Assembly (NCBI GenBank): GCA_030682405.1
Contig: JAUXOF010000059.1
Location: 1 to 47,337 of the forward strand
Direction: 5' to 3'
Source: Thermodesulfovibrionales bacterium
Lineage (GTDB): Bacteria > Nitrospirota > Thermodesulfovibrionia > Thermodesulfovibrionales > JdFR-86
DNA length: 47,337 nt
Shown: positions 787-25,298 of the stretch, piece by piece
Layout: each line of letters opens with the position of its first letter
Numbering within the stretch: position 1 is the stretch's first letter
Notes under the pieces: model-generated
What the model was told of the DNA's origin: nothing
Database searches by the model: none
Seen by the model: only the letters and a program-made list of their open reading frames with translations
Translations under genes and position numbers: made by a program

Positions 787-1479
787 ATGAAAGCACCACC
801 ATTCGATCCATTTATACTTTCACCTGAGACCTCTAATTTAAAGGAATTGTATCCCGACTCCTCTTGTTTAAAAGATATTTATACAAAAACAAATTCTACG
901 GAACGTTTAGGCATAGTAAGATTATGGATAACTGAAGGTATCCCATATGCTTTTAAAGAGCATCCTTTGTTATATGAAAAAATCCGCGAATTTATTGCCG
1001 AGGGGATAAATGTTGACACGAAAAATATTACTATAGTTGGTAGTGCTCGTATTGGGTATTCTCTTTCAAGACGCGAATGGGGGCGACCATTTAATAGCAA
1101 TTCAGATTTTGATTTTACGATTGTTTCAAATGATTTATATAAAACAATTGTAAGTGACTTTCAAAGATGGGTAAAAGATCTTGAGTTAAAACGAACGTTG
1201 CCTAAAGATGTTGCCGAGATGTCTAGATGGTTAAATAATATTAAGTACCTTAATGAAAAAATACCAACAGGCTTTGTTCAAGTAAAATTTATTCCATACC
1301 ATGAGAATTATACCACGGTAAAAAAATGCTATGACACAATCTGGCTATTGAAAAAGAGATTAATCCTCACACAAACCGCTCCTCGTGTATCCGATGCTTC
1401 AATAAGAGTATATTCAAGCTGGAAGGCCTGTATTCATCAATTGCAAATTAATATTAAATCTGCACTGGAGCTGTGGTAA
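787..1479 (+). CDS. Nucleotidyltransferase-fold protein paired with the PBP-like gene
   Basis: I chose the ATG at 787 because GGGA ends 6 nt upstream; an in-frame ATG at 775 overlaps the previous gene by 10 nt and is the alternative. The 230-aa product carries a polymerase-beta-type nucleotidyltransferase signature: GSARIG at residues 85-90, then SDFDF with Asp107 and Asp109, matching hGS...DhD. The strand expected to bring the third carboxylate reads FVQVKFIP (163-170), where a Lys appears in place of an acid, so catalytic competence is uncertain. The ends look helical and there is no signal peptide or membrane segment. It is AT-rich like its partner, suggesting joint transfer. I do not recognise a named family. 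A role in a defence or signalling pair is only a guess from context. Confidence 0.65.
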   Translation: MKAPPFDPFILSPETSNLKELYPDSSCLKDIYTKTNSTERLGIVRLWITEGIPYAFKEHPLLYEKIREFIAEGINVDTKNITIVGSARIGYSLSRREWGRPFNSNSDFDFTIVSNDLYKTIVSDFQRWVKDLELKRTLPKDVAEMSRWLNNIKYLNEKIPTGFVQVKFIPYHENYTTVKKCYDTIWLLKKRLILTQTAPRVSDASIRVYSSWKACIHQLQINIKSALELW

Positions 1480-10733: not shown

Positions 10734-11150
10734 TTACCCGCGCTTTATGCCGTATTCTCTCTCAAGTATCTCCTCTGCCACGCGCTTCATCTTCTCAGGG
10801 TCTGCCCTATGTGGGTATTTTTCCGAAAGCGTAACAGCCGCCCTTACGGCGTTTACATATGCGTATACCGCTTGCGGCTCGACATCCTCGTCCTTATCCA
10901 TCCGCCTTTCAAACTTCTCTATGAGTTTGTTAAGCCTAAGAAGCATGGTCTCTCCGTACCTGAGACCCGACTTCTCCCTTGCCGCGCGTTGTAACCAATC
11001 TCCTTCCCTCTTCCACTTATAAAACGTGGTTGCCGATATCATTATTCCGTGCTCATCCCTAAGCCTCCGGAGTAAGACCTTTATGTCCTCCCCCTCCGAA
11101 GCCGCGTATGCCTTGTATGCAGTTTCCCTCTTTTCAGGCGTGCCTCTCAT
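10734..11150 (-). CDS. Phage-type HTH protein (terminase-small-subunit / DUF1804-like)
   Basis: The 138-aa product has an N-terminal helix-turn-helix region (about residues 8-55: EKRETAYKAYAASEGEDI..., TTFYKWKREGDW) followed by a helical segment with charged residues. The pattern fits the DNA-recognition part of phage terminase small subunits or DUF1804-type proteins. No other phage genes are visible around it, so it is either a prophage leftover or a domesticated DNA-binding protein. The region 10618-10733 has no recognisable feature. Confidence 0.5.
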   Translation of the reverse strand: MRGTPEKRETAYKAYAASEGEDIKVLLRRLRDEHGIMISATTFYKWKREGDWLQRAAREKSGLRYGETMLLRLNKLIEKFERRMDKDEDVEPQAVYAYVNAVRAAVTLSEKYPHRADPEKMKRVAEEILEREYGIKRG

Positions 11151-11840: not shown

Positions 11841-14800
11841 GTGGAAAAACTACTAAGTAGCCTTGCAAAATATTATAGGGCTCTTTTGTTTGAGCTTTCC
11901 ACTCAAGCCGGGAAACATTTTGTAGATTTAAATGCAGTTTTGCGTTATGGATTAACTGCTGACCTTAGCTTGTTTGTCTCTGAAATTGAAGAACTTATTA
12001 ATACTGAAACAATCAGTTTTAATATAGAAAAGGCATCATCTTCATCTATTAATAAAATTATTGAAAAAGCCAATGAATTGGAAGAGAGAGAAGAGAGAGA
12101 AGGATTATTTGAAGATATTGAAGTAAGTCCTGAGGAGCAAGAAAGGAAGAATGCTTCAGCAATATTGGTAGCCATCTATAGAAGGCAGGAATTTGATCCT
12201 TATAACCGTGAAGTTATTATAGGATTTCCCCTGGTATCAGGCAAGATAGGCAGAAAGAAATTTTGTGCACCGCTTTTCTATTATAAAGCCCATATAGATT
12301 TTGACCCATTGAAAAGCAAAATAATCCTCACAAAGGATTTTGAAATACCAGCGTTAAACTTTCAATTGATTAAGCATCTTGTGGAGTCAGACGAAGAAAT
12401 AGAAATGATTCGGCAGAAAATATTGCCGTATCTATATAGCATTGAAGATTTTGGTTTATCAGCAATCAAAGAAATTATTAAAATGTTATCTGAATTAATT
12501 GAAGGATTCAGAGGAATAGATTACCCTTCGCAAGCCTCAACTTTAAAGAATGCACTTGGGTCAAGAGAATATAATGGCGCAAAAATCATTAACACCTCAA
12601 TTGTAGTTAATGCTAAGAGGACTAATGCCTATTTAATTGATGACCTGACTCAAATAGCTCAGAAAGACACAATAGATGATGAGACGGTAATAAATACTAT
12701 TTTATCAGAACCAGCAGAGCCAGTAGATAACGAAAATATCAATGATAGAAATGACACAGATAGTGAAAATCAATCGTTGCTGTTATTCCCACTTCCAAGT
12801 AATAAAGCCCAACGACTTGCAGCAACAAAAGCAGAGAAATCCCATCTTTTAGTTGTACAAGGTCCTCCCGGCACAGGAAAATCTCAGACCATAGTTAATA
12901 TTATTTGCCATCTGGTATCGCAAGGGAAAACTGTATTAGTTACAAGTCATCAAAATAAAGCTCTTGAAGTTATAACTAAAAACATGCCCAAAATAAATTA
13001 TTTAGCAATGTCACTATTAAAGGGTGAAAAGGAATCCATAAATGAACTTACTAATAAAATAGAGGGATTTCATTCTTATGTCAGTAATGTCGATATAAAC
13101 CGTTATACCCAGTTAAAAAAATCTCATTGGGCAAAACTGAGGGAAATTAATTACCATGCAAAAAGACTTCAAGTTAGATTTTCAGAACTCAAAATTATTG
13201 AAAGAGAACAATGCCCGACCTATTTTAAATACCACAAAATAAGAGATTACGATATAATCGATACCTCTGATTCTATTCCTGAAGGAATGGACCATGTAAT
13301 TACTAATGCTCTATCAGAATATTCAAATCTACTTCAAAGGCTCAAAAAAGATTATTCTGCTATCGAAGTTTTTTTGCCAAACAATGACCTTCAAGCACTA
13401 AAGGCAAAGGTTGAACAATTCTCTGTATTTCTTGAATATTGCAAGATGCGCGATTTTGATTATATTGTCCCATCTGATTCTATTCCTGACGGGACAGATT
13501 CTATTGTAGGGCAAGCTTTATCAGAATATTCATCACTTTTGCAAAAGATAAAAGAAAATTTTTCGGATATCGTGAAACTTTTGCCGGCGCAGGACCCAAC
13601 ATTAAATATTCAGGATAATAGTATTGACATTTCAATCGAAAGTATCGGGCAACTTATTCGGATATATGATTTGGTCAAAGAAAACGTTTTAGATGATAAT
13701 GATGTTTTAGAATTTTGTCAACAAATTCTTAAGTTCACCAGCCAAAGTGATGAAATTATCAATTATTTGGATAATCTTCTTTTGTGGATGAACAAGTATT
13801 GCAATGACCTAATAAAAAACTTAAAGGTTTTATCTGAGACATATAATTTAAAAATAGATCTTCAAATCATAAAAAAACAGGCAGAAAAATATGGTAACGA
13901 ACTAACAGATATTTCAAGATGTATAGATAATTTAAATAATTCATTCGCTGAATTACAAACGGTAGGTAGAATAGATGGTTATCCAGAATATCCAGACCTT
14001 GTTTTCCTTGAAGAGTCAGTGATTCACTTAGGGACTTTAGGAGGGGGAGTAAGTTCTTGGTGGAAATGGAGCTTATTTCCGAGTGTTAGAACTTCTCTCA
14101 AATTTTTTATATCTAATGGATTCCCCAAAATTATATATAAAAACCGCGTTAAAACTCTTGAAAAAATTAAAGTATGGCATCGTCATTGGACTTTAAGAAA
14201 TCAGATTTCAAAAAACCTCAGATACTTAGTTGAAATGGGGGTTCCAATTAAAAACCTTTCTTTAAAACCACACATGAGGGAGCTTTACGAAAAATTTAAC
14301 CTCGCTCAAAAATATTTACAGTTAATAGTTGCTTTAAATGCTTTCCCATCAACTCATATAGATACAATCAGAAATATTATAGAGCAACAGATGTTATTTG
14401 GGATTTCTGCTTTTAGTGGTGTAGAAAGATTTAAAAAGTGCCTTGAGAAAACCAAGATTTTATTGGAAGCAAATTCTACTTTGGCTGGGCTTAAATCTAA
14501 TAATCATATTAAAAACTTATGTGTCACACTCTTGGCCCCGGTTGAGAAGACAATATGTCAATTATATATAGCTGAACGAGCTGAGAAGATGGTTAAGAAA
14601 CTTAAGGAATTATACCCCTATTTTTATGACTATAAGCGGTTTAAAACCCTTGAACAATCTGCATTAAAAACCCTTCCTCAAACTTGCGCTAAGTTAAGAG
14701 AGATGGTTCTTACCGAAAACAATTCTCCTAATCTAAATCATCCAGAATTAGTTGTTAAAGCATATAGACTTTCTTCGTCGCTTAAAGAAAATTTACTTCA

Positions 14801-16850
14801 TGACTTCCAAAGCTTAAATGAAACTCTTATAAAAAGATTATCTCCAAGTTTTGAAGACTATATAAAATTAAAAACTATTGAGCAGAATGATTTAAAATCA
14901 CTTAAAGAAACATTTCATAAAATAAAAATTACCATCCTTAAAGGTAATGATTTGCAAGCACTGCAAAGACCAGAATTAATTGTTGAAGCTTTTAGGCTCT
15001 CATCATTTATAAGAGAAGACCTTCTAAAAAATCCTGACGATATCAATGAAGTGTCAGCATCTATTATGAGGCAAAAAGAAGAATCTCGTGAATTGATTTT
15101 AAAAATACTTGATACAAGCCGTAAATTGTCATTAAAACAAGCTGAGTCCGATCAGGTTACTCTATTCTTGATAAATAAATTGAACCGCTTACTTAAACGC
15201 AAGCGAAAGACTTATTCTTTTGTTCAATTAAGGGAACAAATTAATTATGAACAGCTTTTGTCTGTATTCCCATGCTGGATAATGAGCATTGAAGATGTAG
15301 CTCGAATATTCCCATTAGAGTCTGGTCTATTTGACTATCTAATAGTGGATGAATCTTCGCAATGTAATCAGGCAACAACCTTGCATTTGGCATACCGTGC
15401 TAAACGAATGATTGTAGTTGGTGATAGTAAACAGATGAAGAATCCAAATACGCAATTTTTAAGCGATGCGGTAGTTCGACTTAATCTCACAAAATATGGT
15501 TTGGATAAACATCCAAAAGCAGAATTCTTGCATGGAAGGAATTCACTTTTAGACCTTGCTATAGGATGTCAGGACATCAGCCCTGTATTTTTGAATGAAC
15601 ATTTTAGATGCGAACCTCCAATAATCGCATTTAGTAATATGAAGTTTTATGATAATAGACTTCAAACATTAACTCCGTTTCGCAAAAAGCGTTTTACACC
15701 CTGCATGGAAATTAAGGTTATCAATGGGGCTTATGATGATCCAGATGATAAAAAGCAAAATATAGCAGAGGGTCAAGCTGTAATTGCTGAACTAAAAAGG
15801 ATGATTAATAGTGGAGAGCTTGAAGGCGATAAGCAAGGCGAGAAGCTTACAATTGGTATTTTGTCGCCCTTTAGGCAACAGGCGGCACTTCTCCAAAGTT
15901 TGATGTATGAAACATTCGAAGACAATCCATCAGTCTTAAAAGAACACGAAATAATTGCATCTACTGTAGATGGTTTTCAGGGAGACGAGCGTGATGTAAT
16001 TCTCTACTCTTTTCGGTATGCTCTTAATTCAAAGCCAGGAACAATTCATGTCTTACAAAGAGAAGATGAACACTCATCGGGACGCTTGAATGTTGCTTTT
16101 AGCAGGGCAAGAAGAAAAGTTGTGTGTTTTGTTTCAATGCCGAAGGATAAATTCCCCAAAGGACTGATTAGAGATTATTTGCATCATGCAGCATCAGAAC
16201 AAAATAGACCTTATAGTAGGCTTGGCAATCCAAGTGAAAGAAAAAAGTGCCAAAGCGAATTTGAAAGAAATGTATTTGATGAACTTGCCAGAAGGGGTTT
16301 AGAGGTATATACACAGGTTCCTTGTACCGGATTTTTTATTGATTTTGTAGTTATTGACAATGAAGGTAGACGAATGGCTGTTGAATGTGATGGCGATTTT
16401 CATTATGAAGATGGCGACCTTAGAGAGGAAGACTATCAGAGACAGGATATAATAGAACGCTATGGATGGTTTGTTCATAGAATCCCATCCCGCCGGTATT
16501 ATGCTGCTCCAGAAAAAGCAATGGATGCTCTCTTGCAAGATTTAAAAAAGCAAGAAATAGATATAGAAATTTCTTGCAATGAAACCGAAGAAAAATCTTT
16601 TCCTGAAACTGCACAAGTTAGTGTCCAAGAAGTTTCTAAAGATGAAGAATCTTTTTCCGTAGCAATTGAAGATAAAATCATTGCAATTCTTTCTGAAGAA
16701 GGACCAATGCCTTTATGGCTTATAGCTCAAAAATTGGGACAATCAAAAGAAGAAATAATGCCAAAACTACAGAAACTTTTAGAACAGCAATATGTTATAA
16801 ATTATTATGATGAGGGCAGTAGGGTAAAAATGTGGAAAGCAATAGATTAA
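11841..16850 (+). CDS. Giant SF1 (Upf1-like) helicase with C-terminal PD-(D/E)XK nuclease
   Basis: The 1669-aa protein is a split SF1B helicase. Motif I GPPGTGKS is at residues 341-348; the Walker B motif DESS is near 1170, in LIVDESSQ; GFQGDERD is at about 1378 and NVAFSRARRK at about 1417. An insert of about 820 residues between motifs I and II is mostly helical and contains two internal duplications. After the helicase comes a restriction-type nuclease fold of the DUF559/MTES_1575 kind: EFERNVFDEL, Asp1501, then VECDGD with Glu1515 and Asp1517. A winged-helix-like tail ends the protein (about 1605-1669). Such helicase-nuclease fusions occur in defence islands, so a role against foreign DNA or RNA is likely but inferred. 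The gene is strongly AT-rich and follows a transposase remnant, implying transfer. The start is GTG, the first possible after an in-frame stop; AAGGAG lies 13 nt away, which is a little far. Confidence 0.85.
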   Translation: MEKLLSSLAKYYRALLFELSTQAGKHFVDLNAVLRYGLTADLSLFVSEIEELINTETISFNIEKASSSSINKIIEKANELEEREEREGLFEDIEVSPEEQERKNASAILVAIYRRQEFDPYNREVIIGFPLVSGKIGRKKFCAPLFYYKAHIDFDPLKSKIILTKDFEIPALNFQLIKHLVESDEEIEMIRQKILPYLYSIEDFGLSAIKEIIKMLSELIEGFRGIDYPSQASTLKNALGSREYNGAKIINTSIVVNAKRTNAYLIDDLTQIAQKDTIDDETVINTILSEPAEPVDNENINDRNDTDSENQSLLLFPLPSNKAQRLAATKAEKSHLLVVQGPPGTGKSQTIVNIICHLVSQGKTVLVTSHQNKALEVITKNMPKINYLAMSLLKGEKESINELTNKIEGFHSYVSNVDINRYTQLKKSHWAKLREINYHAKRLQVRFSELKIIEREQCPTYFKYHKIRDYDIIDTSDSIPEGMDHVITNALSEYSNLLQRLKKDYSAIEVFLPNNDLQALKAKVEQFSVFLEYCKMRDFDYIVPSDSIPDGTDSIVGQALSEYSSLLQKIKENFSDIVKLLPAQDPTLNIQDNSIDISIESIGQLIRIYDLVKENVLDDNDVLEFCQQILKFTSQSDEIINYLDNLLLWMNKYCNDLIKNLKVLSETYNLKIDLQIIKKQAEKYGNELTDISRCIDNLNNSFAELQTVGRIDGYPEYPDLVFLEESVIHLGTLGGGVSSWWKWSLFPSVRTSLKFFISNGFPKIIYKNRVKTLEKIKVWHRHWTLRNQISKNLRYLVEMGVPIKNLSLKPHMRELYEKFNLAQKYLQLIVALNAFPSTHIDTIRNIIEQQMLFGISAFSGVERFKKCLEKTKILLEANSTLAGLKSNNHIKNLCVTLLAPVEKTICQLYIAERAEKMVKKLKELYPYFYDYKRFKTLEQSALKTLPQTCAKLREMVLTENNSPNLNHPELVVKAYRLSSSLKENLLHDFQSLNETLIKRLSPSFEDYIKLKTIEQNDLKSLKETFHKIKITILKGNDLQALQRPELIVEAFRLSSFIREDLLKNPDDINEVSASIMRQKEESRELILKILDTSRKLSLKQAESDQVTLFLINKLNRLLKRKRKTYSFVQLREQINYEQLLSVFPCWIMSIEDVARIFPLESGLFDYLIVDESSQCNQATTLHLAYRAKRMIVVGDSKQMKNPNTQFLSDAVVRLNLTKYGLDKHPKAEFLHGRNSLLDLAIGCQDISPVFLNEHFRCEPPIIAFSNMKFYDNRLQTLTPFRKKRFTPCMEIKVINGAYDDPDDKKQNIAEGQAVIAELKRMINSGELEGDKQGEKLTIGILSPFRQQAALLQSLMYETFEDNPSVLKEHEIIASTVDGFQGDERDVILYSFRYALNSKPGTIHVLQREDEHSSGRLNVAFSRARRKVVCFVSMPKDKFPKGLIRDYLHHAASEQNRPYSRLGNPSERKKCQSEFERNVFDELARRGLEVYTQVPCTGFFIDFVVIDNEGRRMAVECDGDFHYEDGDLREEDYQRQDIIERYGWFVHRIPSRRYYAAPEKAMDALLQDLKKQEIDIEISCNETEEKSFPETAQVSVQEVSKDEESFSVAIEDKIIAILSEEGPMPLWLIAQKLGQSKEEIMPKLQKLLEQQYVINYYDEGSRVKMWKAID

Positions 16851-16995: not shown

Positions 16996-18276
16996 CTAAA
17001 ATATCTTTATCGTTCCGTACTGGCCGTCAAAACCGGGCGAGATATGGACATCCCCGGAGCGCATCTTCTCCACTGCCTCTTTAAGCCTGTCTCGTATCTC
17101 AGGGGAGGCTGCATCTCTTATGCCTGAAAGAGGAATATCCAGGAGTATCCTGAATTCGTTTCCCAATGCCTCAATCAATCTGAAGTACTCCTTCTGAACC
17201 TTCTTTGTGTTGACTCCCGCATCAAAAACCTCGGCCAATACCTCGGCAAACGGAATTATAGAGTAAAAAGGGGGCGCGGCCCCAGCGTCTATGGGCACAG
17301 CCCCTGCGGTTAGGGGCACAACCCCTGCGGCTATAGGCACAGGCACATCGGCAAGTTTTTCAACCCTGTGCATGACGCCCACGGTCAGCCTCTTGCCGCA
17401 CACAGGGCAAATATATTTGTGTTTTACGGTTTCATGAGGCGGCATACTCACCCCGCAGAGCCTGTGGCCGTCATAATGGTACTTGCCCTCCTCAGGGAAA
17501 AACTCTATAGTGCCGCCAAACCCCTGCCCTGTTTTTATAGCATTTGTTATCCCATGATATGAGATGTCCGTATCAAAGATATTGGCCTCCCTGCCTATCT
17601 TCGGGGGCGAATGCGCATCGGAGTTGGAAACGAGAGTGATAGAGTTGAGGCTCAAGAGCCTGCGGTTCATTGGCGGGTCGGATGAAAGCCCTGTCTCTAT
17701 GGCATGGATGTGAGGGGTCAGCTCTTCAAAGCATTCGTAAAGAGAGTCAAACCCGGAGTTTGAGCCTAACACGGAAAAATGCGGGGTCCACGCATGGGCC
17801 GGAATCATCATCGCCTCAGGGGAGGCGTCAAGGACAATCTCAAGGAGCCTCTTTGCGTCAAGCCCAAGTATCGGCCTTCCGTCAGCCGAGAGGTTGCCGA
17901 TTGCCGAAAGCCTCTTATTGATTGCCTCCGCCTCTTTAAACCCCGGAGCAAGCAGTATGGAATGGACTTTCCTAACCCTTCCGTTTTTGCTGTAAATAGA
18001 GCTTATCTCCGCGGTGAGCATGAAAAGGACATCAGCCTTGCACGAGGAAGGCACGTCAGGCGGCTCGTACCGCGTCTTAAGCCTGTAAAGCCCTGCTGAT
18101 GCCGGCTCAAGCTTTTCCTTCAACTCCTCCATCCACAAAGGATGGGTGAAGTCGCCGGTGCCGATAACCCCTATGCCCTTAATCTGCGCCCATCTGAAAA
18201 GCCCCTCAGGGCACATGTCCTTGCTTGTTGCGCGCGAGTGCTTGGAGTGGATGTGGAGGTCGGCTATGAACCTCAT
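16996..18276 (-). CDS. Endonuclease Q family protein (PHP domain)
   Basis: The 426-aa product begins MRFIADLHIHSKHSRATSK, the metal-binding PHP signature. It continues with VIGTGDFTHPLW, MLTAEISSIYSKNG, PAHAWTPHFSVLGS and SNSDAHSPPKIGREAN, all typical of EndoQ (TIGR00375-like). It has a zinc-finger-like CPVCGKRLTVGVMHRVEKLAD and a C-terminal helical domain. EndoQ cuts DNA 5' of deaminated bases such as uracil and hypoxanthine. Residues about 312-332, at the junction of zinc finger and C-terminal domain, are encoded by three 21-bp GC-rich repeat units (VPIAAGVVPLTAGAVPIDAG). The last 95 codons are duplicated at 1655-1939. It is the last gene of the cysES-metK-ahcY run, 52 nt after ahcY. In 16851-16995 only a short frame ending RIKEMMKEAEAA is visible, of unknown origin. 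Confidence 0.85.
   Translation of the reverse strand: MRFIADLHIHSKHSRATSKDMCPEGLFRWAQIKGIGVIGTGDFTHPLWMEELKEKLEPASAGLYRLKTRYEPPDVPSSCKADVLFMLTAEISSIYSKNGRVRKVHSILLAPGFKEAEAINKRLSAIGNLSADGRPILGLDAKRLLEIVLDASPEAMMIPAHAWTPHFSVLGSNSGFDSLYECFEELTPHIHAIETGLSSDPPMNRRLLSLNSITLVSNSDAHSPPKIGREANIFDTDISYHGITNAIKTGQGFGGTIEFFPEEGKYHYDGHRLCGVSMPPHETVKHKYICPVCGKRLTVGVMHRVEKLADVPVPIAAGVVPLTAGAVPIDAGAAPPFYSIIPFAEVLAEVFDAGVNTKKVQKEYFRLIEALGNEFRILLDIPLSGIRDAASPEIRDRLKEAVEKMRSGDVHISPGFDGQYGTIKIF
17280..17342. repeat. Three 21-bp GC-rich repeat units inside endoQ
   Basis: Units 17280-17300, 17301-17321 and 17322-17342 share the plan CCCC-TGCGG-N-AGGGGCACA. Because 21 is a multiple of three, the frame is kept and a Pro/Ala/Gly/Val-rich linker is made. 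The units resemble the intergenic palindromes at 4411-4448 and 35685-35719. Confidence 0.75.
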
Positions 18277-23548: not shown

Positions 23549-23827
23549 TCAGGCCGCCTTTTGAATTTCTTTGGCCTCGTACTCGGGAAACATTATGATA
23601 GCCGGATGGATGTCAAAAGCCCTCGCTATGCGCTCTACGCGTTTCTTGCCTATTTCCACCCTGTCGTTTTCCAAAAGGCTGATATTGGACGCGCTGATGC
23701 CCGTCCGCTTGGCAAGCCCCTCCTGCGTCCAGCCCTTTAATTCACGAAGCATGCGTATGACCTCGCCGGTCGTGAGTTTTGCATGAGGTTTTGCCGGCGC
23801 AAATTCGGCCTGTCTACGAATTCCCAT
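23549..23827 (-). CDS. XRE-family antitoxin, HigA-like
   Basis: The 92-aa protein contains a classic helix-turn-helix (about residues 20-75): GEVIRMLRELKGWTQEGLAKRTGISASNISLLENDRVEIGKK split over the usual five helices. It lies 8 nt after a RelE/HigB-type toxin gene on the same strand, the toxin-first order typical of higBA. It should neutralise the toxin and repress the shared promoter at 24117-24145. Confidence 0.82.
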   Translation of the reverse strand: MGIRRQAEFAPAKPHAKLTTGEVIRMLRELKGWTQEGLAKRTGISASNISLLENDRVEIGKKRVERIARAFDIHPAIIMFPEYEAKEIQKAA

Positions 23828-23835
23828 AAGTCCTC

Positions 23836-24108
23836 CTAATCTTCGTGCGGCGTTATTTCCAAAACATAAACGGTAACGGTGTCCCGCTCTACCTTATAGA
23901 TTACCCTGTATTGCAAGCTCAGGCGCGATGAACGCTGACCCTTGCGTTTGCCCTTCAGTTTCTCGTCATGAAACCCCGGAAACTCTCTCGCTTTCTCCGG
24001 CCCGTGCCTGAAAACAATATCCTTCCAGAGTTCGTATTTCTTAACTACCGCTACCGGAAGCCTGCGGCATATCCTCCCGATGTCCCGATGCTCTTTGATA
24101 TGCCACAT
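23836..24108 (-). CDS. RelE/HigB-type toxin
   Basis: The 90-aa basic protein has the RelE-superfamily pattern: an N-terminal helix pair, a central lysine-rich stretch (DEKLKGKRKGQRSSRLSLQYRVIYKVE) and a final strand VTVYVLEITPHED. These toxins cut mRNA at the ribosome. Arg and Lys residues are available in the expected catalytic strands, but their roles are not assignable here. It is the first gene of the pair, with a 17-bp-spaced sigma70 promoter whose start point is predicted at the start codon. Confidence 0.82.
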   Translation of the reverse strand: MWHIKEHRDIGRICRRLPVAVVKKYELWKDIVFRHGPEKAREFPGFHDEKLKGKRKGQRSSRLSLQYRVIYKVERDTVTVYVLEITPHED

Positions 24109-24116
24109 TATTAAAT

Positions 24117-24145
24117 ATAATAAGTTATCAGTATTAATAAGTCAA
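24117..24145 (-). promoter_or_regulatory. Toxin-antitoxin promoter and probable operator
   Basis: TTGACT (24145-24140) and TATTAT (24122-24117) are separated by exactly 17 bp, and the -10 box is 8 nt from the ATG. The spacer TATTAATACTGATAACT together with the -10 box forms an imperfect AT-rich palindrome that could bind the HigA-like protein. Confidence 0.65.
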
Positions 24146-24281
24146 GGGACTTGGGGCGGGAGATTTTTGTCCGGCGAGGCTTGACTTTTACACTTAATGG
24201 AAGCTTAAGGCGCGGGGGGCAATCAGCATGAATAAAAAATGCATCAGCGTAATTCCCCGTCGCCTTGATTGAATTGTTAAA

Positions 24282-25121
24282 TCAGCCTTCATTTGTATTT
24301 TTATGTGAGCTTGCCTCTGATGATTCCGATTCAGAGGATAATAATTCAGGAGAAGTTTCCTCAGCACTGTTTTCTTTTTTAGTTCGCAATAATTTACGTG
24401 CTACTTTTTGAACTTTTTTCTTTGCAATATCAGCCTTTTCACCTTCTATTACTTCGCGTTTTAAGACGTCTTGTATCAAAACATTACGTAAATCGTCGAT
24501 TGGAACTTTTACGTCTGGTGTAATTCTTCTAAGCTCTTTTCTTATTGCCTGTAATACGGTGTCACTTAGGATAAGTGCCCCCAAGTAAAATTTATTAGTA
24601 GCCTGAATCTGGTCATGGTAGGCATAAAGACCAGATTTGATCATACTCTCTTTGGTAAGCAGGAAAAGGTTTTCCAGATGGGTTTCGTTCTTAAAATTGA
24701 GGGTGAGCAAATCGATATCTAATACCATCTCAAAATCAATTGGCTTTGAAAATATTACCTTAAAAACCTTCCAGTTATTGGCATTAGTAAGAGCAACCCA
24801 TTCAATGCCCTTATTTGAAGCATAATCGACTGCTTGTTTAATATGGCTGTCTTTCAAATCAATGCCAACCGCCTTAACCTCAATCAGCATTTGAAATTTG
24901 CCTTCTATTTTTGTCGCTAAATCACAATAAGTGCCACGGATAGCAAGTTCCTTTGTAACTTCACTGTATTTGTCATATCCAAATAATTCAGCCATCATAT
25001 CGGTGACAATCATTGAGGTATCAGATTCATTTGCATCCCGAGCCTTTGCCGCGGAAATAATCGGCTGGAATCGTTTCAGACCAAAAGATAATCTGTCAGC
25101 GATTTTGTTAGGAATAGCCAT
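24282..25121 (-). CDS. Orphan PD-(D/E)XK nuclease, HsdR N-terminal-domain-like
   Basis: The start is the ATG at 25121 with AAGGAGG 8 nt upstream; the frame continues 33 codons further into the transposase-like remnant, which is not part of the gene. The 279-aa product has the nuclease core YSEVTKELAIRGTYCDLA...FQMLIEVKAVG, with an Asp followed by IExK, then HIKQAVDYASNKGIEWVALTNANNWKVF. This is typical of type I restriction R-subunit N-terminal domains and type IV-like restriction proteins. The C-terminal 60 residues are basic, then Ser/Glu-rich and probably disordered. No helicase, methylase or specificity gene is nearby. It is AT-rich and so probably acquired. It could be a stand-alone defence nuclease. 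In 24109-24281, apart from the toxin promoter, I see nothing. Confidence 0.72.
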   Translation of the reverse strand: MAIPNKIADRLSFGLKRFQPIISAAKARDANESDTSMIVTDMMAELFGYDKYSEVTKELAIRGTYCDLATKIEGKFQMLIEVKAVGIDLKDSHIKQAVDYASNKGIEWVALTNANNWKVFKVIFSKPIDFEMVLDIDLLTLNFKNETHLENLFLLTKESMIKSGLYAYHDQIQATNKFYLGALILSDTVLQAIRKELRRITPDVKVPIDDLRNVLIQDVLKREVIEGEKADIAKKKVQKVARKLLRTKKENSAEETSPELLSSESESSEASSHKNTNEG

Positions 25122-25165
25122 TATGTGTCCTCCTTTTAATTGGACTGACCCCTTCCTTAATTGTT

Positions 25166-25298
25166 GAAGCAGGAAGGACTCCAGTTGCATTATCTTAAGC
25201 AGCCGCCTCCTTCCTGTCAAGATTTTTCTGCTGTAATGACAAGGACATCTCCCCTACTGTCCTCATTTGACCGAACCAGCCCGGGGTTGACCAGTTCC
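25166..25298 (-). pseudogene. Transposase-like C-terminal remnant, copy 2
   Basis: On the minus strand 25231-25166 matches 11579-11644 over 66 bp without gaps (five mismatches), ending QKNLDRKEAAA and TAA. 25298-25257 matches 11456-11496 with one extra base. The 82-bp middle of copy 1 is reduced to 25 bp. The extra base shifts the frame, so this copy is broken. It sits directly upstream of the nuclease gene, as copy 1 does for the helicase-nuclease. Confidence 0.7.

Follow-up and report, generated by a model that had tools for sequence, protein, structure and literature searches.

A stand-alone UPF1-like helicase with a Vsr-type nuclease, from an unnamed branch found in Nitrospirota, as a candidate single-protein defence effector

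What does a bacterium gain from a single gene that joins a split helicase to a nuclease, and is such a gene a new kind of defence system? The question is raised by a 47,337-nucleotide stretch of DNA from a Thermodesulfovibrionales bacterium (the window; contig C59 of a 2.0 Mb genome that is 99.8% complete), in which an earlier note had described a helicase-nuclease with a giant insert, in an arrangement that might be new. The open reading frame starts with GTG and encodes 1669 aa without an internal stop, and its domains follow in the order N-domain, split UPF1-like SF1 helicase, Vsr-type PD-(D/E)XK nuclease and winged-helix-like tail (Table 1). Pfam recovered AAA_11 as a match split into two pieces (best 320-418), followed by AAA_12 (1234-1429) and, with E 6.8e-24, the MTES_1575 REase (1474-1568). 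On the nuclease, PF18741 scored 84.2 bits against a cut-off of 38.2, which identifies an MTES_1575/Vsr REase, while the AAA_11/AAA_12 pair, the SF1 motifs and a UPF1-like fold identify the motor. Walker A (341) and motif II (1164) stand 823 residues apart, close to the roughly 820 first estimated. In an alignment of 27 related sequences, the proposed catalytic residues Asp1501, Glu1515 and Asp1517 proved invariant, as did E1475, Q1492, D1531 and R1534 of the nuclease and the helicase motifs DE.SQ, GD..Q, QG.E and R.NV...RA.

Structure prediction, from an alignment built without plasmid rows, points the same way. The model of the C-terminal part matched Ighmbp2, UPF1, Sen1, senataxin and Dna2 (Z 16-19), with RecA-like domain 2 at Z 18-19 to the first four of these, and the N-terminal part matched the same helicase folds at Z 11-14, the match lists being dominated by the helicase domain. 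In the AlphaFold model the tail has three helices at 1609-1651, as the suggested winged helix would have, with low confidence at the extreme end. Neither the N-domain nor the tail matched a named family, though PF0610-like_N matches the tail of one homologue weakly, under its cut-off; judging from the model, the N-domain may contain a UPF1 1B-like barrel. The profile E-values, together with a full-length, 64% identical homologue in another family of the order, rule out a chance resemblance.

Table 1. Features of the helicase-nuclease gene in window coordinates
Feature	Residues	Position (nt)	Strand	Remark
Whole gene		11841..16850	+	1669-aa UPF1-like SF1 helicase with Vsr/MTES_1575 nuclease
N-terminal domain	1-312	11841..12776	+	alpha/beta, long antiparallel strands 123-165 (predicted structure)
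RecA-like domain 1, first part		12789..13115	+	AAA_11, AAA_19, AAA_30
Walker A, QGPPGTGK	340-347	12858-12881	+	invariant across all aligned relatives
Large insert	426-1120	13116..15200	+	all-helical by prediction
Insert repeat A, copy 1	456-515	13206..13385	+	windowed search with shuffles
Insert repeat A, copy 2	526-585	13416..13595	+	windowed search with shuffles
Insert repeat B, copy 1	921-994	14601..14822	+	score 155 over 74 columns
Insert repeat B, copy 2	997-1070	14829..15050	+	windowed search with shuffles
Motif II (DESSQ) and RecA-like domain 2 (AAA_12)	1170-1174 (motif II)	15330..16127	+	
RecA-like domain 2 motifs	GD..Q 1194-1198; QGDER 1380-1384; R.NVA.SRA 1415-1423			
Vsr-type PD-(D/E)XK nuclease (MTES_1575)		16260..16544	+	PF18741
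Nuclease catalytic codons	Asp1501; Glu1515; Asp1517	16341-16343; 16383-16385; 16389-16391	+	
Winged-helix-like tail	about 1608-1669	16662..16847	+	three helices in model

Helicase-Vsr proteins are widespread and mostly without names, and the highest-ranking matches of the window protein are to defence proteins: PADLOC placed PDC-S37 first (5.9e-81), followed by MkoC, Hhe and MkoA, and the best NCBIfam match was the anti-phage protein ProA. These matches lie mainly in the common helicase and nuclease parts. The ProA model (NF058533, cut-off 1500 bits) reached 314 bits, over model positions 598-1733 of 1903, where genuine members in the phylum score 1833-2130 bits; PDC-S37 aligned best over 889-1376 of its 1550 positions, at 271 bits, compared with 1125-1266 bits for full-length matches in the phylum; and Hhe (NF042953, cut-off 2000 bits) scored 184 bits. 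The comparison with Mokosh and DUF4011 helicases that had been proposed returned related helicase parts, no DUF4011 match in the window protein at E up to 1, and, for Mokosh type II (MkoC), no PLD, the nuclease being MTES_1575. A maximum-likelihood tree of motor and nuclease sets the window branch apart as a separate clade (support 100/98) on a long stem; with a midpoint root, and where long branches meet, it lies on the BREX-adjacent side rather than that of Hhe and ProA. By sequence, then, the protein is a member of an unnamed branch of the helicase-Vsr superfamily that also holds Hhe, PDC-S37/ProA and BREX-adjacent helicases, and it belongs to no named family. Our literature search found no paper on PDC-S37 or ProA, and no characterised close homologue of the window protein was found.

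The claim of a new arrangement is not supported. The same domain order, with an insert of ~680 residues, occurs in many Nitrospirota genomes and in plasmid genes; Hhe and ProA/PDC-S37 have it too, with inserts of different length. For example, a helicase-Vsr protein of an Acinetobacter plasmid (L072 3693-8423) lies directly downstream of BREX pglZ and brxL; close copies of it are carried by many Acinetobacter plasmids. What is new may thus be narrower than the arrangement, namely an insert and, largely, an N-domain of the branch's own, outside the named families. Residues 107-171 of the N-domain match the N-region of one helicase-Vsr group with 87.5% probability.

The giant insert is real, and it is a mark of the helicase-Vsr class rather than a peculiarity of this gene, since the gap between Walker A and motif II is long in every full-length relative examined (438-1213 residues, mostly 664-683) and CoCoNuT CnuH helicases carry a large helical insertion at the corresponding place (PMC11090510). 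The shortest gaps, of 438-440 residues, characterise one group; most relatives fall at 664-683, ProA at 626-640 and Hhe at 936, and the maximum is 1213. From its position, the insert would be an enlarged form of the 1C-type insertion that UPF1-like helicases carry; its AlphaFold model is all-helical at low to moderate pLDDT. Two tandem duplications lie within it, scoring 149 (repeat A) and 155 (repeat B) against shuffled maxima of ~50, and repeat A is visible in the DNA as well, at 70% identity; BLAST self-comparison of the protein did not detect these internal repeats, which the windowed search with shuffles did. Both duplications are present in the full-length homologue (G164), while in a second relative (G345) repeats A and B are single and the gap is 670 residues, so that the insert of the lineage of the window gene and G164 was most likely enlarged by ~150 residues through duplication. 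A zinc-ribbon-like stretch of 37 residues, with four cysteines, is present in the insert of the G164 homologue (L029 4890-10007) and absent from the window copy.

Inserts of ~560 residues in two other groups of relatives are homologous to each other (99.9%), whereas profile comparison found no detectable relation between the window-branch insert and those of the other branches (<2%), nor did the unduplicated G345 insert by itself show one. The window-branch profile is thin, yet depth alone does not account for the non-match, since thinning one side of the positive comparison to one to three sequences still gave 98.4-99.8%; faster divergence could. The insert is the fastest-evolving part of the protein, at 52% identity to G164 against 83% for the first part of RecA1 and 82% for the other RecA parts, with the N-domain (73%) and nuclease (72%) between.

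Besides the window gene, three copies of the branch were found (G164, G345 and G336), of which two count as full-length, both in Nitrospirota. The G164 copy (JACAFE010000037.1) is that of the different family of the order; the G345 copy, of 1421 aa, is 73% identical in its C-terminal half and has lost its tail to a stop; and in the G336 copy (JACUUX010000002.1, Kmv42) residues ~318 to 1574 are missing in frame, fusing the N-domain to the tail. The Kmv42 product (L050 9977-11242) therefore has 421 residues, N-domain and winged-helix-like tail only, and no motor or nuclease of the window branch was found at other loci of that genome. Its N-domain is 94% identical in protein and 96% in DNA to that of G164, while the tail DNA is just 83% identical; the window N-domain is 73-75% identical in both. 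In all, the gene is carried by 4 of the 176 genomes of the order and is absent from the five other genomes of the window genome's own family, a distribution on which we reject a housekeeping role in the phylum, one of the outcomes that had been named as refuting a defence system. An insert-only search of 396 phylum genomes returned the window genome and G164 only, G345 perhaps not being among the genomes drawn. A contig search with a two-sequence alignment found two loci only, its patterns lying in the N-domain and so having little bearing on distant relatives; it missed a third full-length member, which another genome search recovered. No close relative was found in IMG/VR, and phage records gave five matches, all weak.

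No neighbour is conserved among the four copies, which fits a single-gene unit and upholds the reported lack of partners. The window gene adjoins a PHP gene, sahH and metK, outside any obvious defence island; 7 kb downstream (23549-25220) lie a toxin-antitoxin-like pair (Xre-type regulator, RelE/HigB-like toxin) and an orphan HSDR_N_2 protein. Elsewhere, the G164 copy is near a DarG-like protein and an MNT-HEPN pair, and the G336 copy is flanked by PIN and DUF1016 genes. The scarcity of partners also bears on whether the protein could be a helicase-nuclease subunit of CnuH III-B type, belonging to a multi-gene restriction system (CoCoNuT or another) with its remaining genes elsewhere or lost. 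In favour of this, the published CnuH III-B is a UPF1-like helicase with a large helical insertion after Walker A, an N-terminal wHTH and a fused Vsr nuclease (PMC11090510), but McrC (PF10117) was found in none of the four carrier genomes, one of which is just 66% complete, so this is not a canonical CoCoNuT; nor is there a McrB, McrC or coiled-coil neighbour in the window or one common to the copies. We regard such a subunit as very improbable.

Composition points to transfer. The window gene has a GC content of 0.339 and a GC3 of 0.257, compared with 0.512 and about 0.62-0.66 in its surroundings, whereas the G164 copy resembles the DNA around it in composition; the window genome therefore most likely received the gene from a low-GC relative. 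Could it then be the decaying remnant of a mobile island, without present function? The motor-less G336 copy, the truncated G345 tail and the non-coding debris 5′ of the window gene would all be in keeping with decay, but the window copy is intact through 1669 codons with all motifs kept, and dN between window and G164 is well under dS in every domain. As dS is saturated these ratios are only indicative, and on them the protein appears to be conserved as by purifying selection. We consider decay quite improbable.

Two further features of the flanks were noted. A 285-nt direct repeat, 96% identical, occupies 1655-1939 and 16997-17281 and consists of the 3′-terminal 95 codons of the PHP gene (16996-18276(-)). 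Its distant copy adjoins the C-terminal end of a 4Fe-4S NapH-like protein; in relative G032 this protein and the PHP gene are convergent neighbours. Both copies have AT-rich DNA on their left, indicating a past rearrangement or an assembly fault. The intervening genes (e.g. lipA) are ordinary and of host-like composition, which speaks against an integrative element bounded by this repeat. Separately, a 138-aa reverse-strand ORF at 10734-11150 resembles, by eye, a phage or transposon DNA-binding protein; it matched no Pfam or PHROG family.

Taken together, these observations suggest that the protein is probably a stand-alone anti-phage (or anti-plasmid) effector, and there is good support for a one-protein helicase-nuclease related to defence proteins. 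The intact domains and catalytic residues, the UPF1-type folds, the top PADLOC and NCBIfam matches, the BREX pglZ-brxL-adjacent relative, the neighbourhoods of G164 and G336, the horizontal transfer, the patchiness and the low dN all argue for it, and it is weakened by the lack of an obvious defence island, by matches that run mainly through common parts and by the saturated dS. UPF1-like helicases also carry out RNA or DNA maintenance work, a DUF4011 gene belongs to the core genes of P. aeruginosa (PMC10250203), and Dna2 likewise combines a helicase with a nuclease. A UPF1/Dna2-type repair or RNA surveillance enzyme, acquired by a few Nitrospirota and having no part in defence, would accord with a fold nearest UPF1, Ighmbp2, Sen1 and Dna2 and with the metabolic genes next to the window gene. 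Such an enzyme would be harder to reconcile with presence in so few genomes of the order and absence from close relatives, with a base composition foreign to the genome, with neighbours that vary in every copy and with nearest named families that are anti-phage, and we judge it unlikely. We know of no phage challenge of any member of the branch.

If the protein is a defence effector, the helicase would load onto and move along abnormal nucleic acid born of infection, either RNA or phage DNA in single-stranded or processed form. The N-domain and the rapidly diverging helical insert could form a sensing or gating arm, and ATP-driven movement would free or position the C-terminal nuclease, which would cut nucleic acid and protect the cell directly or by arrest; the winged helix may keep duplex nucleic acid close to the nuclease. 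To our knowledge, how helicase-Vsr proteins distinguish phage from self is not known. Our comparison singles out the insert as the part that varies between branches, with motor and nuclease constant, and the branch offers a small natural series, with Walker A and motif II separated by 670, 823 or 858 residues or, in the motor-less form, both missing, which is suited to asking whether the insert determines what is sensed. A bolder proposal, which we hold to be rather unlikely as a whole, is that the Nitrospirota branch senses with a helical insert of its own, which has no kinship with the inserts of Hhe, ProA and BREX-adjacent proteins, so that the sensor arm of helicase-Vsr proteins would be exchangeable, and that the Kmv42 form is a working protein made from the two ends, such as a regulator, decoy or immunity factor.

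Among known systems, ProA/PDC-S37 (NF058533; PADLOC PDLC05009) shares the single gene, the split UPF1-like helicase (gap 626-640) and the MTES_1575/Vsr nuclease, but has about 350 extra residues before Walker A and falls in the other half of the tree, and its insert and N-domain have no detectable relation to those of the window protein. Hhe (DUF4011-helicase-Vsr; NF042953) is likewise a one-protein SF1 helicase with a 936-residue gap and a Vsr nuclease, whereas the window protein is without DUF4011 and on a different branch. CoCoNuT III-B CnuH shares the UPF1-like helicase, the large helical insertion after Walker A and the fused Vsr nuclease, but is described as acting with McrB-, McrC- and coiled-coil partners (PMC11090510), the published description being the basis of comparison here. 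Mokosh (MkoA, MkoC) has related UPF1-like helicase parts (E 9.6e-43 to MkoC) but a PLD-like nuclease in place of Vsr (PMC10952713). The BREX-adjacent and other unnamed helicase-Vsr proteins (e.g. WP_233945502.1) lie on the same side of the midpoint-rooted tree and have an N-domain, a split helicase with a 682-residue gap and an MTES_1575 nuclease; there, two groups share one homologous insert module, to which the insert of the window branch is not detectably related.
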